Positions 2,984 through 11,110 of a stretch of 30,066 nt of DNA are shown here, piece by piece. This DNA is from a virus: IMG/VR virus record IMGVR_UViG_3300027881_000052, positions 1-30,066 of that record, one strand, 5' to 3'. Below the pieces are notes generated by a model. It was not told where the DNA came from. It saw nothing but the letters and a program-made list of their open reading frames with translations, and did no database searches. The first letter of the stretch is position 1, and each line of letters begins with the position of its first letter. Both the position numbers and the translations under genes were made by a program.

Positions 2984-4192
2984 GTGCCAGCGAACGTCGA
3001 GATCACGTACCGGCGTCCACGCTGGCTCTACCCAAAGCAGTTCGAGGCGATCTACGACCCGGCTCGGTTCGTGTTCATCGAGGCGTCGACGAAGAGCGGC
3101 AAGACCGTCGGGTGCATCTCGTGGCTCGCTGAGAAGGCGGTCGGCGGAGTCGAGGGCAACGAGTTCTGGTGGGTGGCTCCGATCTACGCTCAGGCGAAGA
3201 TCGCGTATCGCCGGATGAAGCGGTTCCTGCCGCGGGATCACTACAAGGCGAACGACTCCGATCTGCGGCTCACGCTCGTCGTCAACGGTGCGGTGATCGT
3301 GTTCAAGGGCTCGGACAATCCGGACTCTCTCTACGGCGAGGACGTCTGGGCTTGCGTCGTCGACGAGGCGAGCCGGTGCAAGGAAGAGGCGTGGGTGGCG
3401 ATCCGGTCGACGCTCACCGCGACCCGCGGGCCGGTCCGGATCATCGGCAACGTCAAGGGTCGCAAGAACTGGGCGTACCGTCTCGGCCAGTTGGCGAAGG
3501 CCGGGCACGCCGGATACGCTTACCACCGCATCACCGCGGTCGACGCGATCCGGGCCGGAGTCCTCGTACTGGAGGAGATCGAGGACGCGCAGATGGTGCT
3601 CACTCCCGACGTGTTCAACGAACTGTACATGGCGATCGCGACCGAGGACGGTGCCAACCCGTTCGGGCTCGTCGCGATCGAGAACTGCGTTGCGCCGATC
3701 GCCGACGCTGAGCCAGTCGTCTGGGGTTGGGATCTCGGCCGCAAGCAAGACTGGACGGTGGGCGTGGGGCTCGACGAGTTCAAGCGCACCTGCCGCTTCA
3801 CTCGGTTCCAGAGGTCGTGGCCGGAGACAACGCAAGCGATCCTCAACGAGACCGGCGCTGCGAAGGCGCTCGTGGACGGCACCGGCGTCGGCGATCCGAT
3901 CGTGCAGGACCTCCAGAAGCTATCCGACGAGGACAACTTCGAGTCGTTCATCTTCACCTCCAAGAGCAAGCAGCAACTCATCGAGGGGCTCTGCCTCGAC
4001 GTCCAGCAGGGTGCGATCATCTTTCCGGACGGCGACATCAGAGACGAGATGGAGAACTTCGAGTACGTTCACACGAGGACCGGGATCAAGTACGAGGCAC
4101 CGCCAGGGCTGCATGACGACTGCGTCTGCGCTCTCGCTCTCGCTCGGCTCCGGCACGAGCAAGGCGGGTGGGCTCCGGCCGCGGCGTGGTAG
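2984..4192 (+). CDS. terL: Terminase large subunit (packaging ATPase and nuclease)
   Basis: A 402-residue protein with both terminase domains. In the ATPase domain, Walker A is ASTKSGKT (residues 34-41), Walker B is 'WACVVDE' ending at D127-E128, and 'IIGNVKGRKNW' (153-163) fits the coupling motif. In the RNase H-like nuclease domain, acidic residues lie at D250 ('WGWDLG'), D298 ('LVDGTGVGD') and D378/D379 ('HDDCVCALALA'). The product docks on the portal, drives DNA into the prohead and cuts it. Start is GTG 2984, three bases after the terS stop, with GGAG sites in the preceding coding end; no ATG gives a better N-terminus. At about 400 residues it is at the short end for the family but complete in motifs. 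Confidence 0.93.
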   Translation: MPANVEITYRRPRWLYPKQFEAIYDPARFVFIEASTKSGKTVGCISWLAEKAVGGVEGNEFWWVAPIYAQAKIAYRRMKRFLPRDHYKANDSDLRLTLVVNGAVIVFKGSDNPDSLYGEDVWACVVDEASRCKEEAWVAIRSTLTATRGPVRIIGNVKGRKNWAYRLGQLAKAGHAGYAYHRITAVDAIRAGVLVLEEIEDAQMVLTPDVFNELYMAIATEDGANPFGLVAIENCVAPIADAEPVVWGWDLGRKQDWTVGVGLDEFKRTCRFTRFQRSWPETTQAILNETGAAKALVDGTGVGDPIVQDLQKLSDEDNFESFIFTSKSKQQLIEGLCLDVQQGAIIFPDGDIRDEMENFEYVHTRTGIKYEAPPGLHDDCVCALALARLRHEQGGWAPAAAW

Positions 4193-4279
4193 GGTGGGAG
4201 TGGGAGCGGGGGATGTCAGAACCTCTACTCCTTCCTTTCCATCGGCGGCTCCGGTGGCCGACACCGCCGGGGTCGCCAC

Positions 4280-4308
4280 TTGACGATCGGCTCCGGCGGA
4301 GTTATGAG
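4280..4308 (+). promoter_or_regulatory. Possible sigma70-type promoter before the structural genes
   Basis: TTGACG at 4280-4285 is separated by 17 bases from TATGAG at 4303-4308 (five and four matches to the bacterial housekeeping consensus). It lies in the only sizeable intergenic gap. Transcription would start near 4315, just before the terminator-like hairpin at 4339. The match is modest and could be chance. Confidence 0.35.
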
Positions 4309-4338
4309 TGGTGAGGTGATTTTGATTGTCACGGGTCC

Positions 4339-4377
4339 GGCGACCTCTCTGCGCATGGGGGTCGCCATTTCTTTTTT
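4339..4377 (+). terminator. Intrinsic terminator or attenuator after terL
   Basis: GGCGACCTCT (4339-4348) can pair with GGGGGTCGCC (4357-4366). This gives a 10-base-pair stem with two G-U pairs and an 8-base loop. It is followed by ATTTCTTTTTT (4367-4377), a rare T-run in this GC-rich DNA. This is the layout of a rho-independent terminator for the + strand. The next gene starts only 26 bases later, so full termination would silence it unless read-through or antitermination occurs. Confidence 0.65.
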
Positions 4378-4403
4378 CAGCGAACCGGCCGGGAGGTAAG
4401 GCA

Positions 4404-4778
4404 ATGGGAAAGACCGTTCACAACGACGTTCTGGATGCGGCACTGGACAAGGTCGCGACGGGTAACCAGATGAGTGCGTGCGCAACCGAACCGACGACCC
4501 GGACCGAGGCGATCACGACCAACAAGCTGGCGATCGTCGCGATGACACCCGGTGACGGCAATGACTACACGGTGAGCGACGGCGACACCAACGGCCGGAA
4601 GGTCGAGGTCGGTGCGCAGACCGGCGTCACGGTCGACTCGACCGGCACGGCGGATCACGTCGCACTCGTGGACGCTTCGATCCTCCTCTATGTCACCACG
4701 TGCACGAGCCAGGGGTTGACGGCCGCAAACACCGTCGACTTCCCCGCATGGGACATCGAGATCGCCGACCCGACCTGA
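4404..4778 (+). CDS. Conserved phage structural-region protein, function unknown
   Basis: A 124-residue protein of a type I recognise from many tailed phages: 'TVHNDVLDAALDKV' near the N-terminus, a central 'VSDGDTNGRKVEV' followed by 'GVTVDSTGTADHVAL', then 'LLYVTTCTSQGLTAANTV', and a C-terminal 'PAWDIEIADPT'. The pattern is a short helix followed by beta strands. Family members lie among virion genes and are usually annotated hypothetical; a small virion or decoration protein is plausible but not shown. Start ATG 4404 follows GGGAGGTAAGG. The frame is open upstream to 4326, but that part runs through the terminator hairpin. Confidence 0.85.
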   Translation: MGKTVHNDVLDAALDKVATGNQMSACATEPTTRTEAITTNKLAIVAMTPGDGNDYTVSDGDTNGRKVEVGAQTGVTVDSTGTADHVALVDASILLYVTTCTSQGLTAANTVDFPAWDIEIADPT

Positions 4779-4793
4779 TGACCGGAGCCCACG

Positions 4794-5165
4794 ATGGACG
4801 TGTGGGTATTCCACGAGAACTTCGATGTACCGGAGTTGTGCGACCGCGCTGACGACCAGGACCCGGCAGATGTGAGCGACGGGTTCACCGGGATGACCCC
4901 GGACTATACGCCGGGGAAGCTTCGTCAAGCGGCGCGGACCTTCTGGCCGAGCGAGATGAAGGGCAGCGCACCGAACGCTCTCCAGAACGGCGAAGATCGG
5001 ATCTCCGACCCGGACTACCCGGTGGCGTTGATCTACCCGAACGGGAACGACGCCTACGGAGACCCGTGGGACGATGACTCGACCTACGCAACGAACCCGA
5101 GAGCATGGCGGATGTATTGGTGTCGCCATGCGCGGTCGGTCCCGGCACCGCCGCCGCCGGGGTAG
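4794..5165 (+). CDS. Hypothetical protein in the structural region
   Basis: A 123-residue acidic protein rich in Asp, Pro and aromatic residues. It has no signal peptide, membrane segment or family that I recognise. A DPDYP...YPNGNDAYGDPWDDD stretch around residues 75-95 is Asp-rich and could bind metal, but this is only composition. The protein ends in a proline run (PAPPPPG). ATG 4794 has GGAG eight to eleven bases upstream. Genes on both sides read as virion components, so a minor virion protein is the contextual guess. Confidence 0.65.
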   Translation: MDVWVFHENFDVPELCDRADDQDPADVSDGFTGMTPDYTPGKLRQAARTFWPSEMKGSAPNALQNGEDRISDPDYPVALIYPNGNDAYGDPWDDDSTYATNPRAWRMYWCRHARSVPAPPPPG

Positions 5166-5168
5166 ACG

Positions 5169-7721
5169 ATGGCGCTGACGAAGGAAGGTCAATACACCGG
5201 GTCCGGGGTCGATGTCTCCTCGGTGGACGTGACCTCAGTCGGGCAGTTCACCGACTGCCTCTACCTCGTGGTGGTTTCGTCGAAGCCGAGCAAGACCGTC
5301 TCGTCGGTTTCGAACACGGGCGGGTTGTCCTTCGTTCAGAAGAAACGACAGTGCGGCGGTCGGCAGCAGACCAGCATCGAGGTCTGGGAGGCGCGAGGGA
5401 CGCCGAGCGGATCGTTCACTGTCACCGCGAACCTGAGCGCCAGCACGTCGGCGGTCTGCGTCTCGGTCATCGCCATCACCGGGACCGACGATACGACGCC
5501 GACGCAGAACTACATCGGCAACAACACCGTCGGCGACAACGACGCGACCTGCTCGGGCGGGACCGACGCCGATCCATCCTCATACTCGCAGAGCATCAGC
5601 GACTCGTCCTCGTGGTTGTTCACCTGCATTGAGTTCCGCAACAAGACGCTGACGCTCGACTCGGCGTGTACCGAGATCACCGACATCAGCGCCAACAGCG
5701 GCGGGTCCGAGGCGAACCACAAGACCGCCTACGATACGACGCCGTCGACACCGACGCAGACCATCGACCACTCCGACAGCGATGTGGACTATTGCCAGAT
5801 CGGTTGCGAGATCGTCGAGGCGGCGGCGGGTGTGACGCTCGTCATCGCCGACTGCGCTCACGCTCACGCCGCAGACAACCTCGTCCTCGTCGAGAACAAG
5901 ACGCTCGCAATCAACGACGCGACCCACGCTCACGCTGCGGAGTCGCCGACGCTCGTCCAGCATCACGCACTGGCGATCGACGCCGCATTGCACAGTCACA
6001 CGGCCGACGCTCTCGACCTCGCGGTGACGCATCATCTCGCGATCCAAGAGGCGACTCACGGGCACACCGCACAGAACGTCGTCCTGTCGGTCACGTTCCT
6101 CCTCGCGATCGCCGGAGCCGTTCACGGTCACACGGCCGCGAACGTCGACCTGACGCAGCATCACGTCCTCTCGATCGACTCGGCGCTGCACTCGCACACG
6201 GCTGACAACGTCGATCTCGTTGAGGGTCACGTCCTCGCGATCGACTCGGCGATCCATGCTCACTCGGCGGAGTCTCTCGACCTCTCGCAGAGCCACGTCC
6301 TGAGCATCGAGGATGCTCTGCATGGGCACTCGGCCGACAACGTGGACCTCTCGGTCCAGCACATCCTCGCGATCGCAGACGCACTCCACGGTCACTCCGC
6401 AGACAATCTCGATCTCGTCCAAGCGCACGTCCTCGTCGTCGCCGATTGCCTCCACGCGCACACTGCCGAGAACCTCGACCTTGTCGAGTCCGGAGCGCTC
6501 CAGATCCAGTCGGCTCTCCACGGTCATTCTGCCGACTCACTCGACCTGATTCAGCATCACGTCCTCGTCGTCGCCGACGCGATTCACGCGCACACGGCGG
6601 ACAATCTCGATCTGGTAGAGGGGCTGACACTCGCGATCGACGACTGTCTGCACGGGCACACCGCCGACAACGTGACGCTCGCGGTCACTCATGTCCTGGC
6701 GATCGCTGATTGCCTCCACGCTCACTCGGCCGAGGTCCCGACGCTCGCGGTCACGCACGTCCTCGCGATCAACGATGCGATCCACTTGCACTCGGCGGAC
6801 AACCTCGACCTCGTGACCACCGGCGCTCTCGTGATCCAGGCCGCTCTCCACGGCCACACTGCCGACAATCTCGATCTCGTCCAACACCACGTCCTCTCGA
6901 TCGCCGACTGCCTCCACAGCCACTCGGCCGAGTCGCTCGACCTCGCACAGACGCACACGCTGGCGATCGACGCGACGACTCACGCGCACTCAGCCGACTC
7001 TCTCGACCTGACGCAAGCTCACGTGCTGGCGATCGCCGAGTGTCTCCATGCGCACGCCGCGGACAACATCGACCTCGCCGTGCCGGGGGTCCTGGAGATC
7101 CAGTCGTGCGCCCACGCTCACACGGCCGACTCTCCGGCTCTGACGCAGCATCACGTCCTCGCAATCGCATCCTCGGTCCACGCTCACTCTGCGGACAACC
7201 TCGACCTCGTCGAAGGGCTCACGCTCGCGATCGCGGACTGCGTCCACGGCCACACTGCCGACGAGGTGACGCTGACTCAGGCGCACGTCCTCTCGATCGA
7301 CGACACGGTGCACGCTCACGCTGCCGACAACGTCGACCTCGCGGTGACTCACGTACTCGCGATCGCCGGGTGCGTCCACGACCACTCGGCCGACAACGTC
7401 GCTCTCGTCCAGCATCACGTCCTCGTCATTGACGGCTGTCTCCACGCTCACGCCGCCGACGAGGTCCCGATCACGGCGACCAACTACCTTGAGATTCAGT
7501 CGACGGTCCACGCGCACTCGGTGGACAACATCGACCTCGTCCAGCATCATTACCTCGCGATCGACGACGCTCATCACGGTCACACGGCTGACTCGCTCGT
7601 GCTCGGCGGTGCTGAGCAGTTCCGGTCGCGGCAGGTCGTCCGGGCGGAGGTCCCGTTGCAACAGACGGTCCGAGCCGAGGTCAACTTCCGGCAGACGATC
7701 CGAGCGCAGATGAACAAATGA
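5169..7721 (+). CDS. Large repeat protein with 27 His-x-His repeats, probable virion fibre
   Basis: An 850-residue protein in three parts. Residues 1-223 are Ser/Thr-rich with alternating hydrophobics, consistent with a beta-sandwich attachment domain. Residues 224-817 are 27 back-to-back 22-residue repeats with approximate consensus L-A-I-x-D-x-x-H-x-H-[STA]-A-D-N-[LV]-D-L-V-Q-x-H-V; His-x-His is kept in every copy. Residues 818-850 hold about three short repeats (VVRAEV, TVRAEV, TIRAQM). Known trimeric phage fibres such as T4 gp37 bind iron through HxH motifs from three chains, so a metal-stabilised fibre is attractive but inferred. Start ATG 5169 lies just after the preceding stop with only a weak ribosome site, suggesting coupled translation. 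It could be a head fibre, tail fibre or decoration protein; the repeats are certain, the role is not. Confidence 0.85.
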   Translation: MALTKEGQYTGSGVDVSSVDVTSVGQFTDCLYLVVVSSKPSKTVSSVSNTGGLSFVQKKRQCGGRQQTSIEVWEARGTPSGSFTVTANLSASTSAVCVSVIAITGTDDTTPTQNYIGNNTVGDNDATCSGGTDADPSSYSQSISDSSSWLFTCIEFRNKTLTLDSACTEITDISANSGGSEANHKTAYDTTPSTPTQTIDHSDSDVDYCQIGCEIVEAAAGVTLVIADCAHAHAADNLVLVENKTLAINDATHAHAAESPTLVQHHALAIDAALHSHTADALDLAVTHHLAIQEATHGHTAQNVVLSVTFLLAIAGAVHGHTAANVDLTQHHVLSIDSALHSHTADNVDLVEGHVLAIDSAIHAHSAESLDLSQSHVLSIEDALHGHSADNVDLSVQHILAIADALHGHSADNLDLVQAHVLVVADCLHAHTAENLDLVESGALQIQSALHGHSADSLDLIQHHVLVVADAIHAHTADNLDLVEGLTLAIDDCLHGHTADNVTLAVTHVLAIADCLHAHSAEVPTLAVTHVLAINDAIHLHSADNLDLVTTGALVIQAALHGHTADNLDLVQHHVLSIADCLHSHSAESLDLAQTHTLAIDATTHAHSADSLDLTQAHVLAIAECLHAHAADNIDLAVPGVLEIQSCAHAHTADSPALTQHHVLAIASSVHAHSADNLDLVEGLTLAIADCVHGHTADEVTLTQAHVLSIDDTVHAHAADNVDLAVTHVLAIAGCVHDHSADNVALVQHHVLVIDGCLHAHAADEVPITATNYLEIQSTVHAHSVDNIDLVQHHYLAIDDAHHGHTADSLVLGGAEQFRSRQVVRAEVPLQQTVRAEVNFRQTIRAQMNK
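5838..7619 (+). repeat. 27 tandem 66-bp coding repeats (22 residues each)
   Basis: The region translates as 27 contiguous 22-residue units. The first unit starts LVIADCAHAH and the last LAIDDAHHGH. DNA copies differ at many third positions and use different His, Ala and Leu codons, while the amino-acid pattern stays constant. This points to old duplications under protein-level selection rather than recent slippage. No unit is broken and no frame change occurs. The units are not separated by spacers, so this is not a CRISPR array. Confidence 0.95.
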
Positions 7722-7731
7722 GGAGGAAGGC

Positions 7732-8805
7732 ATGACGACAGTTTGCACTCGGCCGGTCGACATCGAGCGCTACCGCGGTGACACCACGCCGATCGTCGTT
7801 GAGTTGGTCGACGCGGACTGCGAACCGATCGCCGAGACGATCCTGGGCGCATCGTTCCGGTTGACGGTCTCGCAAGAGGAATGGCCCGACACGAACCCGG
7901 CGCTCTTCGAGATCGTCGGCACCGACCTCGACGACACCAACAAGACGATCACGTTCGCGTTCACCGCGGTCGAGGCGGACAACATCGGCGCGTTCTACTA
8001 CGACGTTGAGATGACCGAGTCCGGAGGAGTGATCCACACGGTGCTCAAGGGGCTCATGGTGTTCGAGCAAGACATCACGAAGGCGTCCGGTCCGGCGGCG
8101 CTGCCCGACGTCACGTGGACGCCGAGCGGAGCCGACGGTGACCCGGTCCCGTCCGGTGGGAGCGACCCGTGGATCATGTCGTGGGAGGAGGACGAGCCGT
8201 CACCGTGGGAGTACGAGGACCACGACGGCAAGCTCACAATCACGCCGTCGACGATCGGCACGGCGAGCCAGCACACCGCACTGAAGCCCAATCACGAGGG
8301 CGTGGTGCCCGCCGTCCTGCGACCCGGCGACGCGGTGCGGGTCCTCTGTTGGCTGGAGCCCGATCAGCAGTTCCGGCTCCGGGTCCTCGGGATCACCGGC
8401 ACTCTGTTCGAGTCGGGTGGGTGGTGGGCGAGCGTCCGCTACAACGCCAGCGACGAGATCGAGTACGAGATTGAAACCGAATACAGCGTCGAAGATCTGC
8501 GGCGGGAGGACAGCTGGAGTGACGATCTCGCCGCGCAGACGGCGGGGTGGTTCTACGTCCTGCTCGTCTGCGGAGTCGAGGACGAGAACTCACCGGGCGA
8601 GTACTACCACGGGTTGAAGTTCTGGCCCGAGTTGGACGCCGAGCCCGCGTGGGACAGCGGCACGAATGACGCCTACCTCGAAGGCGACAACGTCGTCAGT
8701 CCGTGGGCGTGGTGGCTCCACCATCAAGGGCTCCCGTTCACCGACCACAAGTGGCGGATCGCCGAGGTCAAGGTGATCCGAACCGGCGTCACGTTCGGGC
8801 TGTAG
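7732..8805 (+). CDS. BppU-N-like virion protein
   Basis: A 357-residue protein. Residues 8-118 look like the Ig-like N-terminal domain of baseplate upper proteins (BppU/DUF2479). They contain 'YRGDTTPIVVELVDADCEPI', a central stretch ending in a strand that reads as IVGTDLDD...ITFAFTAVEAD, then 'GAFYYDVEMTESGG' and a closing 'LKGLMVFEQDIT'. Such domains usually anchor receptor-binding or fibre proteins to the virion. A Gly/Pro/Ser linker (about 119-150) leads to a Trp- and Glu-rich C-terminal domain (150-357) that I do not recognise and that may be a beta-sandwich. Start ATG 7732 has GGAGGAAGGC just upstream. It follows the HxH-repeat gene by ten bases, suggesting that the two work together. 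The BppU-like call is fairly good; the location on the particle is inferred. Confidence 0.7.
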   Translation: MTTVCTRPVDIERYRGDTTPIVVELVDADCEPIAETILGASFRLTVSQEEWPDTNPALFEIVGTDLDDTNKTITFAFTAVEADNIGAFYYDVEMTESGGVIHTVLKGLMVFEQDITKASGPAALPDVTWTPSGADGDPVPSGGSDPWIMSWEEDEPSPWEYEDHDGKLTITPSTIGTASQHTALKPNHEGVVPAVLRPGDAVRVLCWLEPDQQFRLRVLGITGTLFESGGWWASVRYNASDEIEYEIETEYSVEDLRREDSWSDDLAAQTAGWFYVLLVCGVEDENSPGEYYHGLKFWPELDAEPAWDSGTNDAYLEGDNVVSPWAWWLHHQGLPFTDHKWRIAEVKVIRTGVTFGL

Positions 8806-8815
8806 GGGAGGCGAG

Positions 8816-11110
8816 ATGACACAACGACTCGGACTGTTCAAGCGTCTCCGCCTCGGATCGAAATTGATGCAACCACTCTCCGACGAGGAGCGTGGAGTGC
8901 TCGGCAAGCTGTTGCCCGGCGGCTACAAGACGACTCCGTACCGCGGGGTCCGCGGGATGCTCACGGCGTACTCGAAGTCACCGTGGGTCCGGGCGATCGT
9001 CTCGAAGATCGGCGACGCGGTCGGCTCAACGAAGTGGATGCTGTTCGCGGTCAAGGGTGCGAGCGGCAAGTACGTCGCGGACCGGGCGCTCCAAGCGAAG
9101 GGCATCGACACTCGGGCGCTTGCTCTCGGCGGGCTCGACTTCGACGGTGAGCTTGTCCCGATCGTCGATCACCCGGCGCTCCGGCTGCTCAACTCGGCGA
9201 ACCCTCTCTTCCCCGGTCTCGTCGGCCGGACGCAGACGCAGATCTCAATGGACCTCACCGGCGAGGCGCACTGGCTACTCTCGCCGGAGGACTACGGCGG
9301 GACGGCGGTGCCGGAGCGGTTCTGGCTCCTGCCGTCGCATTGGGTCCAGGGGATGCCGACTTCCGGCGACGACAACTGGGACGTCCAGACACCGTTCTGG
9401 CGAGGCAAGTTCCCGGCTCAAGCGATCCTCCGGTTCGTGAACCCGGACCCGATCAACCCGTACGGCAGGGGCAGTGCGATCTTCCGAGCGTTCGGCGACG
9501 AGATCGACACCGACGAGTACGCGGCACAGCACGTCAAGTCGTGGTTCTTGAACAAGGCACGTCCGGACCTCCTCATCACCGGCGAGGGGCTCACCGAGAA
9601 GGATACCGAGCGCATGGAGGTCGCCTGGCTGCAGCAGATGCGCGGGTTCCTCCGAGCCCACAAACCGTTCTTCATCAATCGCAAGGTCGACGTCCGCGAG
9701 ATCAGTCAGCGGTTCGCCGACATGCAGCTGACCGACCTCCGCAAGTGGGAGCGTGACATCATCGTTCACGGCATCGGCGCTCCACCCGAGATCCTCGGCA
9801 TTGTCGAGAACTCGAACCGCTCGACGATCGACGCCGCCGACTACCTCTGGAGTCGGTGGGTCATCACGCCGCGACTCGATCTGATGCGAGCGTTCCTCCA
9901 GTATCAGTTGCTCCCGATCTACGACGACCGCCTCATCCTCGCCTACCAGTCGCCGGTCTCCGAGGACCGGGCGTACCAGCTGGACGTGATGAAGGCGAAC
10001 CCACCGGCGTTCTCCGTCAATGACTGGAGAGAGCAAGCCGAGTTCGAGCCGCGAGAGGACGGCGATGTGAACATGATCCCGTACAACGTCCGGATCGTCG
10101 ACAGTCTCGCGCCGGAGCCGGTCGTGAGGCTGAGCGTCAGGACGACGCCTCCATTGTTCCACCTATCTGACGACCTCTCGGATGGACTGGGTTGCGGGCA
10201 CGCAGAGGCATCATCCTCGCACGCCTCGCGTGGTGTCCTGCCATCCATCTTGGGCAAGCAAGTCGGCGGTCCGGAGACGACCGGGCTGGCTCTCAAGCTG
10301 TCGCCGGGGATGCAGAAGGAGATCATCGCCGCGTTCAAGGCGGTGCGCGACTCGATCGACTACCGGGCGCTCATGGCGGCGTTCGACGCGGGCAACATCC
10401 AGGCGGCTCTGGCGATCATCGAAGGGGCGGATCTGCCCGCCGCCTTCGAGGACGCTCGGCAGATTCTCAGACAGGCGGTCGTCGTCGTCGGCGAGGAAGC
10501 GGCCAAGGAACTCGGTGCGTACCTCGGGACGACTCTCAACTTCGAGATGACCAACCCGGAGGCGGTCGCGTTCCTCGAATCGGTCGGAGCCGACATGCTC
10601 GACAACGTGACTGACGACGTGATCGAGGCGGCTCGGAAGATCCTGACCGACGCCTACGCCGACGGTCACACATCGCAGGAGGCGGCGAAGCTCTTGCGCG
10701 AGAAGGTCGGGCTCACGACCCGCGACCTCAATCAACTCGACACGCTCCAACGTGCCTGGGAGGACGGCGGCGCATCCGCGGCCGAGATCCAGGAGTTGAC
10801 CGAGAAGTGGACTGAGGGAAAGATCCGATACCGGGCTCAGTTGATCGCCGACAACGAGCTCGTCGAGGCGGGGAACCGGGGTCAGCGAGCGCTCTGGGAT
10901 CAAGCGGCGAGCGAAGGGCTCATCCCGGCCGAGGCGAAGAGACGATGGATCGTGACGCCGGACGACGCCTTGTGCGTGCTGTGCGCTCCGATGGACGGCG
11001 TTGAGGTCGGGTTCACTGAGCTTTACCAGACCGACGTCGGCGCTGTGATGGTGCCGAATCAGATCCACGTTCGGTGCCGGTGTTCCGAAATGCTAGTGTT
11101 GAAGAAATGA
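8816..11110 (+). CDS. Portal protein fused to a MuF-like head protein domain
   Basis: A 764-residue protein. Residues 1 to about 440 match HK97-type portals: 'YSKSPWVRAIVSKIGDAVGS' near residue 44, 'DLTGEAHWLL' (about 145), 'FVNPDPINPYGRGSAI' (about 205) and a crown/clip-like 'GIGAPPEILGIVENSNRSTI'. After a linker, residues of about 490-764 are helical and end in a Mu gpF-like signature: 'LIADNELVEAGNRGQ', then 'WIVTPDDALCVLCAPMDG' and 'HVRCRC'. Cysteines C720, C723, C754 and C756 could form a zinc site. The portal is the dodecameric DNA channel at one capsid vertex; MuF proteins are minor head proteins associated with it. Portal and MuF are separate genes in many phages, so a fusion is noteworthy but not unique. 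Start ATG 8816 follows AGGGGAGGCG. The frame is continuous. Confidence 0.9.
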   Translation: MTQRLGLFKRLRLGSKLMQPLSDEERGVLGKLLPGGYKTTPYRGVRGMLTAYSKSPWVRAIVSKIGDAVGSTKWMLFAVKGASGKYVADRALQAKGIDTRALALGGLDFDGELVPIVDHPALRLLNSANPLFPGLVGRTQTQISMDLTGEAHWLLSPEDYGGTAVPERFWLLPSHWVQGMPTSGDDNWDVQTPFWRGKFPAQAILRFVNPDPINPYGRGSAIFRAFGDEIDTDEYAAQHVKSWFLNKARPDLLITGEGLTEKDTERMEVAWLQQMRGFLRAHKPFFINRKVDVREISQRFADMQLTDLRKWERDIIVHGIGAPPEILGIVENSNRSTIDAADYLWSRWVITPRLDLMRAFLQYQLLPIYDDRLILAYQSPVSEDRAYQLDVMKANPPAFSVNDWREQAEFEPREDGDVNMIPYNVRIVDSLAPEPVVRLSVRTTPPLFHLSDDLSDGLGCGHAEASSSHASRGVLPSILGKQVGGPETTGLALKLSPGMQKEIIAAFKAVRDSIDYRALMAAFDAGNIQAALAIIEGADLPAAFEDARQILRQAVVVVGEEAAKELGAYLGTTLNFEMTNPEAVAFLESVGADMLDNVTDDVIEAARKILTDAYADGHTSQEAAKLLREKVGLTTRDLNQLDTLQRAWEDGGASAAEIQELTEKWTEGKIRYRAQLIADNELVEAGNRGQRALWDQAASEGLIPAEAKRRWIVTPDDALCVLCAPMDGVEVGFTELYQTDVGAVMVPNQIHVRCRCSEMLVLKK

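Follow-up and report, generated by a model that had tools for sequence, protein, structure and literature searches.

A 22-residue HxH repeat array in a probable phage fibre protein, its relatives in other viruses and a companion gene

The probable fibre gene and its neighbourhood

The window (the whole stretch of DNA analysed here) is an IMG/VR virus record of 30,066 bases, and all of its features for which we give coordinates lie on the plus strand. A single open frame at 5169–7721 encodes an 850-residue protein that holds the entire array, including all 27 HxH motifs. The array (5832–7613) is preceded by an N-terminal domain of 221 residues (5169–5831), which has no detectable relatives in Pfam, phage records or IMG/VR, and is followed by a C-terminal tail of 35 residues (7614–7718) with a spaced R-x-x-hydrophobic pattern (RQVVRAEVPLQQTVRAEVNFRQTIRAQMNK). 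Searches of Pfam, PHROGs and PDB sequences, whether with the full-length protein or with an alignment of its repeats, returned nothing significant for the window, and the phage collection holds no close relative of it.

The gene order places this protein within the head module. The terminase large subunit (TerL; 2984–4192, phrog_2, E 2e-29) is followed by a gene of 124 codons at 4404–4778, which we call the companion gene, by an orphan gene of 123 codons without any match (4794–5165), and by the fibre gene itself. Directly 3' of the fibre gene lies a gene at 7732–8805, and after it come a portal/MuF gene (a portal and head morphogenesis fusion; 8816–11110, phrog_2662, E 2e-56, and phrog_3517), a protease, the major capsid protein, neck and tail proteins, and the tape measure. 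The N-terminal ~120 residues of the 7732–8805 product match phrog_1084 (E 1e-10), a family of unknown function which we take to resemble the BppU-like upper-baseplate domain, and this product is a likely partner of the fibre.

Relatives of the window TerL are numerous at 53–62% identity, and in a good number of them the portal directly follows TerL. In the nearest relative (L074), the interval between TerL and portal holds an apparent beta-helix spike and, immediately before the portal, a homologue of the 7732–8805 gene. In another (L087), a protein encoded at 3580–5331 of that contig has a LamG-like domain and then a different, 20-residue repeat without histidines, LRTLxxSVSLVxxLSTxxAR. Because spike- or lectin-type proteins occupy the interval in these relatives, it is probably a cassette for host contact. 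The 850-residue protein is probably a virion fibre with the array as its shaft, and since its gene lies between TerL and portal in the head module, attachment at the neck or collar is no less likely than at the tail.

A strictly periodic array under selection

The frame carries 27 HxH motifs and no others, and the spacing between them is exactly 22 residues in 26 of 26 intervals. When the residues of the array were shuffled 2,000 times, HxH arose 10.9 times on average, and at most 5 motifs fell in any one 22-residue phase, compared with 27 in the real array. The original prediction of 27 in-register repeats is therefore confirmed; its span, 5838–7619, is obtained by starting the unit two codons later than we do. 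With our unit start, HxH occupies positions 10 and 12 in every unit, and the consensus is H-V-L-A-I-x-D-A-L-H-x-H-[TS]-A-D-N-L-D-L-x-x-x. The further histidines that had been described near the unit boundary are also present, at position 1 in 18 units and at position 22 in 7 of the 27. In 10 of the 27 units the motif reads C-x-H-x-H, with a cysteine at position 8, two residues before the first histidine; elsewhere in the family a cysteine at this position occurs in ~3% of units. Judging from the sequence, it could be a third ligand or merely a small core residue.

The prediction had singled out the histidines by their conservation, and HxH is indeed invariant, but Leu3 is equally so (27/27), and Ala14 and Leu19 (26/27 each) and Ile5 (25/27) are nearly so. 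Between units, the median dS is ~1.0 against a dN of ~0.47. Pairwise codon differences at Ala14 (0.65) and Leu19 (0.50) are near the values expected at saturation (0.63 and 0.57, respectively). At the two histidine positions of the motif, CAC outnumbers CAT by 24:3 and 26:1, and in the rest of the genome by 49:8, so these codons give little evidence of synonymous divergence between units; the divergence is seen at Ala14 and Leu19. The array is a real and strongly selected feature, and its units are old, as indicated by a mean pairwise identity of 50% and by adjacent units being no more alike than distant ones.

Relatives of the repeat

Four scans of IMG/VR, one genome scan and two scans of phage records yielded 84 distinct arrays at 78 loci, with 1,014 units that share the 22-residue repeat. 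The number of units per array has a median of 11 and a maximum of 42, so that 27 units are not a record. The longest array (L158, in an ORF of 1306 residues starting at 2554) has HxH in 33 of its 42 units and is split by an apparent LamG domain. A search for homologues with different copy numbers and invariant HxH had been proposed; copy number does vary, but HxH is found in 837 units (83%) and is absent from the remaining 17%. It is present in every unit of 36 of the 84 arrays, and its commonest substitute is HxQ (71 of 1,014 units). The first histidine is kept in 97% of the first 580 distinct relatives' units, and the second is freer. Comparison of the sequences supports selection on the His pair as part of the repeat core in about 80 related arrays.

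The motif is largely or wholly replaced, by LxL, QxQ, HxQ, HxS, HxN or HxP, in L070, L065, L178, L193 and L067, with the unit otherwise kept. In L070 (ORF from 84), LxL stands in all but one of six units and none has a histidine there, and in L178, L193 and L067 most units carry HxQ, HxS, HxN or HxP. A metal that is obligatory in every unit does not agree with these arrays; given the 17% of units without HxH and the lack of a His pair in L070, the fold does not require metal. Since arrays of one family keep or lose HxH, the natural HxQ and LxL variants make the role of metal directly testable.

Changes in unit length all fall between L19 and the next L3 when only ungapped unit cores are counted. 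The altered lengths are even (20, 24 or 26) in 107 cases and odd (21, 23 or 25) in 42, these being counts of sequences rather than of independent events; a preference for even lengths is expected of an extended strand. Across the whole set of arrays, adjacent units resemble each other slightly more than they do in shuffled order (0.512 vs 0.500).

Outside the repeat, the relatives carry different N-terminal domains, several of which look LamG- or lectin-like by eye. A tail similar in style to that of the window protein follows 14 of the 69 arrays counted, compared with 13 of 455 control ORFs, and this short R-patterned tail may anchor the fibre to an adaptor. Tails of the form R-x-hydrophobic-x-V/I recur in relatives such as L022, L010, L035 and L192. 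Microcystis phage Mae-JY22 is the only isolate in which we found the repeat; its array (L022) has 8 units, and it also carries the companion gene. The scan of bacterial genomes found it on two metagenome-assembled contigs only, assigned to Anaerolineae (L072) and Planctomycetota (L073), which are possibly prophages or phage contigs binned with their hosts. The repeat has no entry of its own in Pfam, PHROG or the PDB, and our literature search found no description of it.

The companion gene

The product of the companion gene is a predicted fibre-attachment protein with a neck or fibre-adaptor fold. Its homologues, 39–69% identical, adjoin the array on either side at 55 of the 78 loci, a lower bound because the fetched flanks were limited, and they are found on none of 80 contigs with TerL relatives. 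The family is absent from Pfam, and its only PHROG match, if any, is a weak one (phrog_3758). An AF2 model built with 53 sequences reached a pLDDT of 97.2 and matched the Sf14 neck protein 9c39_K (Foldseek E 4.9e-4; 105 of 124 residues superposed at 2.7 A with Z 9.9), the Bas63 connector 9mt4 (Z 9.7), the tail fibres of Agrobacterium phage 7-7-1 (9rkv, Z 7.9) and the GP4 fibre-tail adaptor 8jou (Z 6.1); the HFTV1 tail was also among its best structural matches. The companion thus has its fold in common with these neck and fibre-adaptor proteins of Sf14, Bas63, 7-7-1 and GP4, although sequence identity is only 15–16%. The neck whiskers of Sf14 are formed by gp30 and gp31, which come next after the portal gp29 (PMC11821841); neither is equated here with 9c39_K.

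Fold and neighbourhood together suggest that the companion attaches the fibre to the virion. Its homologue gp9 in Octadecabacter DB virus 2 adjoins a tailspike gene, and in L011, L012 and L028 a Gp77 fibre-tail adaptor (PF23148, scoring over the cut-off) lies directly downstream of the array; the window record itself has no match to PF23148. Together with the array relatives, the association and fold match of the companion support the earlier reading of the array as a fibre shaft, which is very probably right. The companion family also offers a handle for annotating fibre cassettes in metagenomic phages that would otherwise be nameless.

Possible structures of the shaft

In several phage fibres and spikes, namely T4 gp37, the R-pyocin fibres, P2 gpV and the phi92 spikes, three chains contribute HxH motifs to octahedral metal sites (PMC6116203), and an octahedral zinc occurs in the HFTV1 tail fibre (PMC12494034). 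The window protein likewise has two histidines one residue apart, repeated along a putative shaft. With trimeric sites of this kind well documented in other phage fibres, metal binding is plausible here, and a metal ladder in the window fibre is plausible but unproven. The fibre context and the six-histidine precedents fit a trimer with HxH on its axis, and a trimeric shaft that also holds metal is the reading we favour, at about even probability.

The residues of the unit alternate in two stretches, 9–14 and 17–5, with turns at D15-N16 and D7-A8. For a trimeric, metal-bearing shaft we infer from this that each unit would contribute a short strand, x-H-x-H-x-A, and a long strand, V-x-L-x-Q-x-H-x-L-x-V, connected through turns at D-N and D-A. 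The residues that would face the core alternate along the strands: L3, I5, H10, H12, A14, L17 and L19. Three parallel chains of 27 units would form the shaft, in which the six histidines of three HxH pairs could bind either iron or zinc as a divalent ion on the axis, and the metal would fix the register of the chains and stiffen the shaft. If the rise per residue were that of the R1 pyocin shaft (93 A per 70 residues, PMC6116203), the 27 units would extend for about 79 nm. The fibre would belong to a long-tailed phage, and its anchor at the neck (collar) or tail could be the companion, the 7732–8805 protein or both.

What stands against a trimer with metal is that the window protein has no significant match to PTR (PF12789) or any other fibre family, and that the AF2 monomer of eight units is no trimeric strand arrangement but a regular beta-helix whose strands lie near residues 2–8 and 11–15 of each unit. 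Such a monomeric beta-solenoid, with one coil per unit and a shaft of ~13 nm, would bury the HxH motifs in a double ladder of histidines with steps of 4.8 A, with or without metal between coils. Its 22 residues per coil are normal for beta-helices, the slight likeness of neighbouring units over all arrays agrees with it, and VIA-align gave a Z of 16.2 to the PL3 pectate lyase 1ee6 (168 residues, 3.1 A) and of ~13–15 to many other beta-helices. However, Foldseek found nothing for the array model at E <= 0.001 in the PDB or BFVD (in the PDB, E > 0.1), adjacent units within the window are no more alike than distant ones, a buried His pair in every coil would be unusual without metal, and HxH repeats of the PTR type are present in a collar fibre. 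Because AF2 draws unrealistic beta-solenoids for repeat sequences (PMC11795689) and the confidence of our model is low (pLDDT 59.7, pTM 0.47), we do not take this model as evidence of the fold and consider the solenoid unlikely, if still a serious competitor. Direct-coupling analysis of 567 three-unit windows gave nearly the same mean strength at lag 22 (2.39) as at lag 44 (2.36), so the couplings mostly reflect lineage composition and favour neither the solenoid nor the trimer.

A trimeric fibre might also use the His pair for core packing or hydrogen bonding, with metal absent or incidental. Whole arrays that are mostly substituted or lack any His pair show that the fold works without it, HxQ is the commonest substitute, and L3, A14 and L19 are conserved nearly like the histidines. 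Against this stand the presence of HxH in every unit of 36 arrays and throughout the window array, the confinement of heavy HxH loss to a few arrays, as if a function were kept or lost as a whole, and the metal held by HxH trimer sites in solved structures (PMC6116203); we judge a metal-free trimer to be rather improbable. The position of the gene in the head module would suit a protein other than a fibre, one that acts inside the cell or sits within the head and has undergone a low-complexity expansion. This is very hard to reconcile with strict register and selection across about 80 arrays, with the lectin-like N-terminal domains and fibre-adaptor gene neighbours of the relatives, with the fold of the companion, and with the spike- or lectin-type proteins in the same slot of TerL relatives, and we give it hardly any weight.

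If the metal ladder is real, as many as 27 metal ions would be evenly spaced along one trimer of the fibre, which would bear on how long trimeric shafts keep register and on the design of metal arrays in proteins, as well as on the proposal that phages act as iron ligands in water (PMC11705849). Extended to the family, this would be a class of fibres in which as many as about 40 six-histidine metal sites follow one another in a ladder (in a solenoid, four-histidine sites that neighbouring coils share), among the longest periodic metal arrays known in proteins, with a dedicated small attachment protein at the neck or tail and with the ladder switched off in some lineages through HxQ or LxL; we hold this fuller picture only tentatively, as somewhat less probable than even.

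Comparison with known HxH fibres

The repeat family represents a large variant, hitherto undescribed, of a fibre design that is already known. Like the present repeat, PTR is found in phage fibres, has a period of 22 residues and carries HxH at fixed positions. The window record has no match to the PTR profile at E <= 1, and the curated cut-off is 27 bits; L036 exceeds this cut-off (32.8 bits per stretch, 54.5 for the whole), L001 matches less strongly, and L051 and L013 match weakly. HxH falls on profile positions 7 and 9 in L036 and L001, as it does in gp12 of Alteromonas phage R22Y, a protein that also matches Pfam PTR and has four of its six HxH motifs 22 residues apart. The published description of R22Y gp12 is of a tail fibre in which six iron sites are possible (PMC11705849). 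Repeats of the PTR type are also present in Bxb1 gp4, a protein that entry 9d93 names tail collar fibers. As close relatives the R22Y repeats were rejected, hhalign giving a probability of <1% between our repeat alignment and the R22Y segment; the link is through the PTR profile only. After HxH, the PTR repeat continues as xxxDIxxLxxxLxxK, which is helix-like, whereas the present repeat continues as xADNxxLxQxHxLxVxDA and looks all-beta. Common descent with PTR is suggested but not proved, because periodic HxH itself contributes part of the PTR score.

The comparison with T4 gp37 made in the original prediction is apt as regards the three-chain HxH metal sites of that fibre (PMC6116203), and both proteins have several HxH motifs in one fibre protein with an axial metal role proposed, but it does not extend to homology: the best domain of our family HMM scores -0.9 bits on gp37, whose HxH motifs are irregularly spaced (32, 14, 37, 14, 9 and 9 residues) amid Gly, Ser and Thr. 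The R-pyocin shaft, P2 gpV and the phi92 spikes, to which the repeat has no sequence match in the PDB, likewise unite HxH from three chains in an octahedral six-histidine metal site (PMC6116203). The R-pyocin shaft has a single iron site and not a periodic array; fully occupied, the window fibre with its 27 ions would stand far above both this single iron and the seven of T4 gp37.
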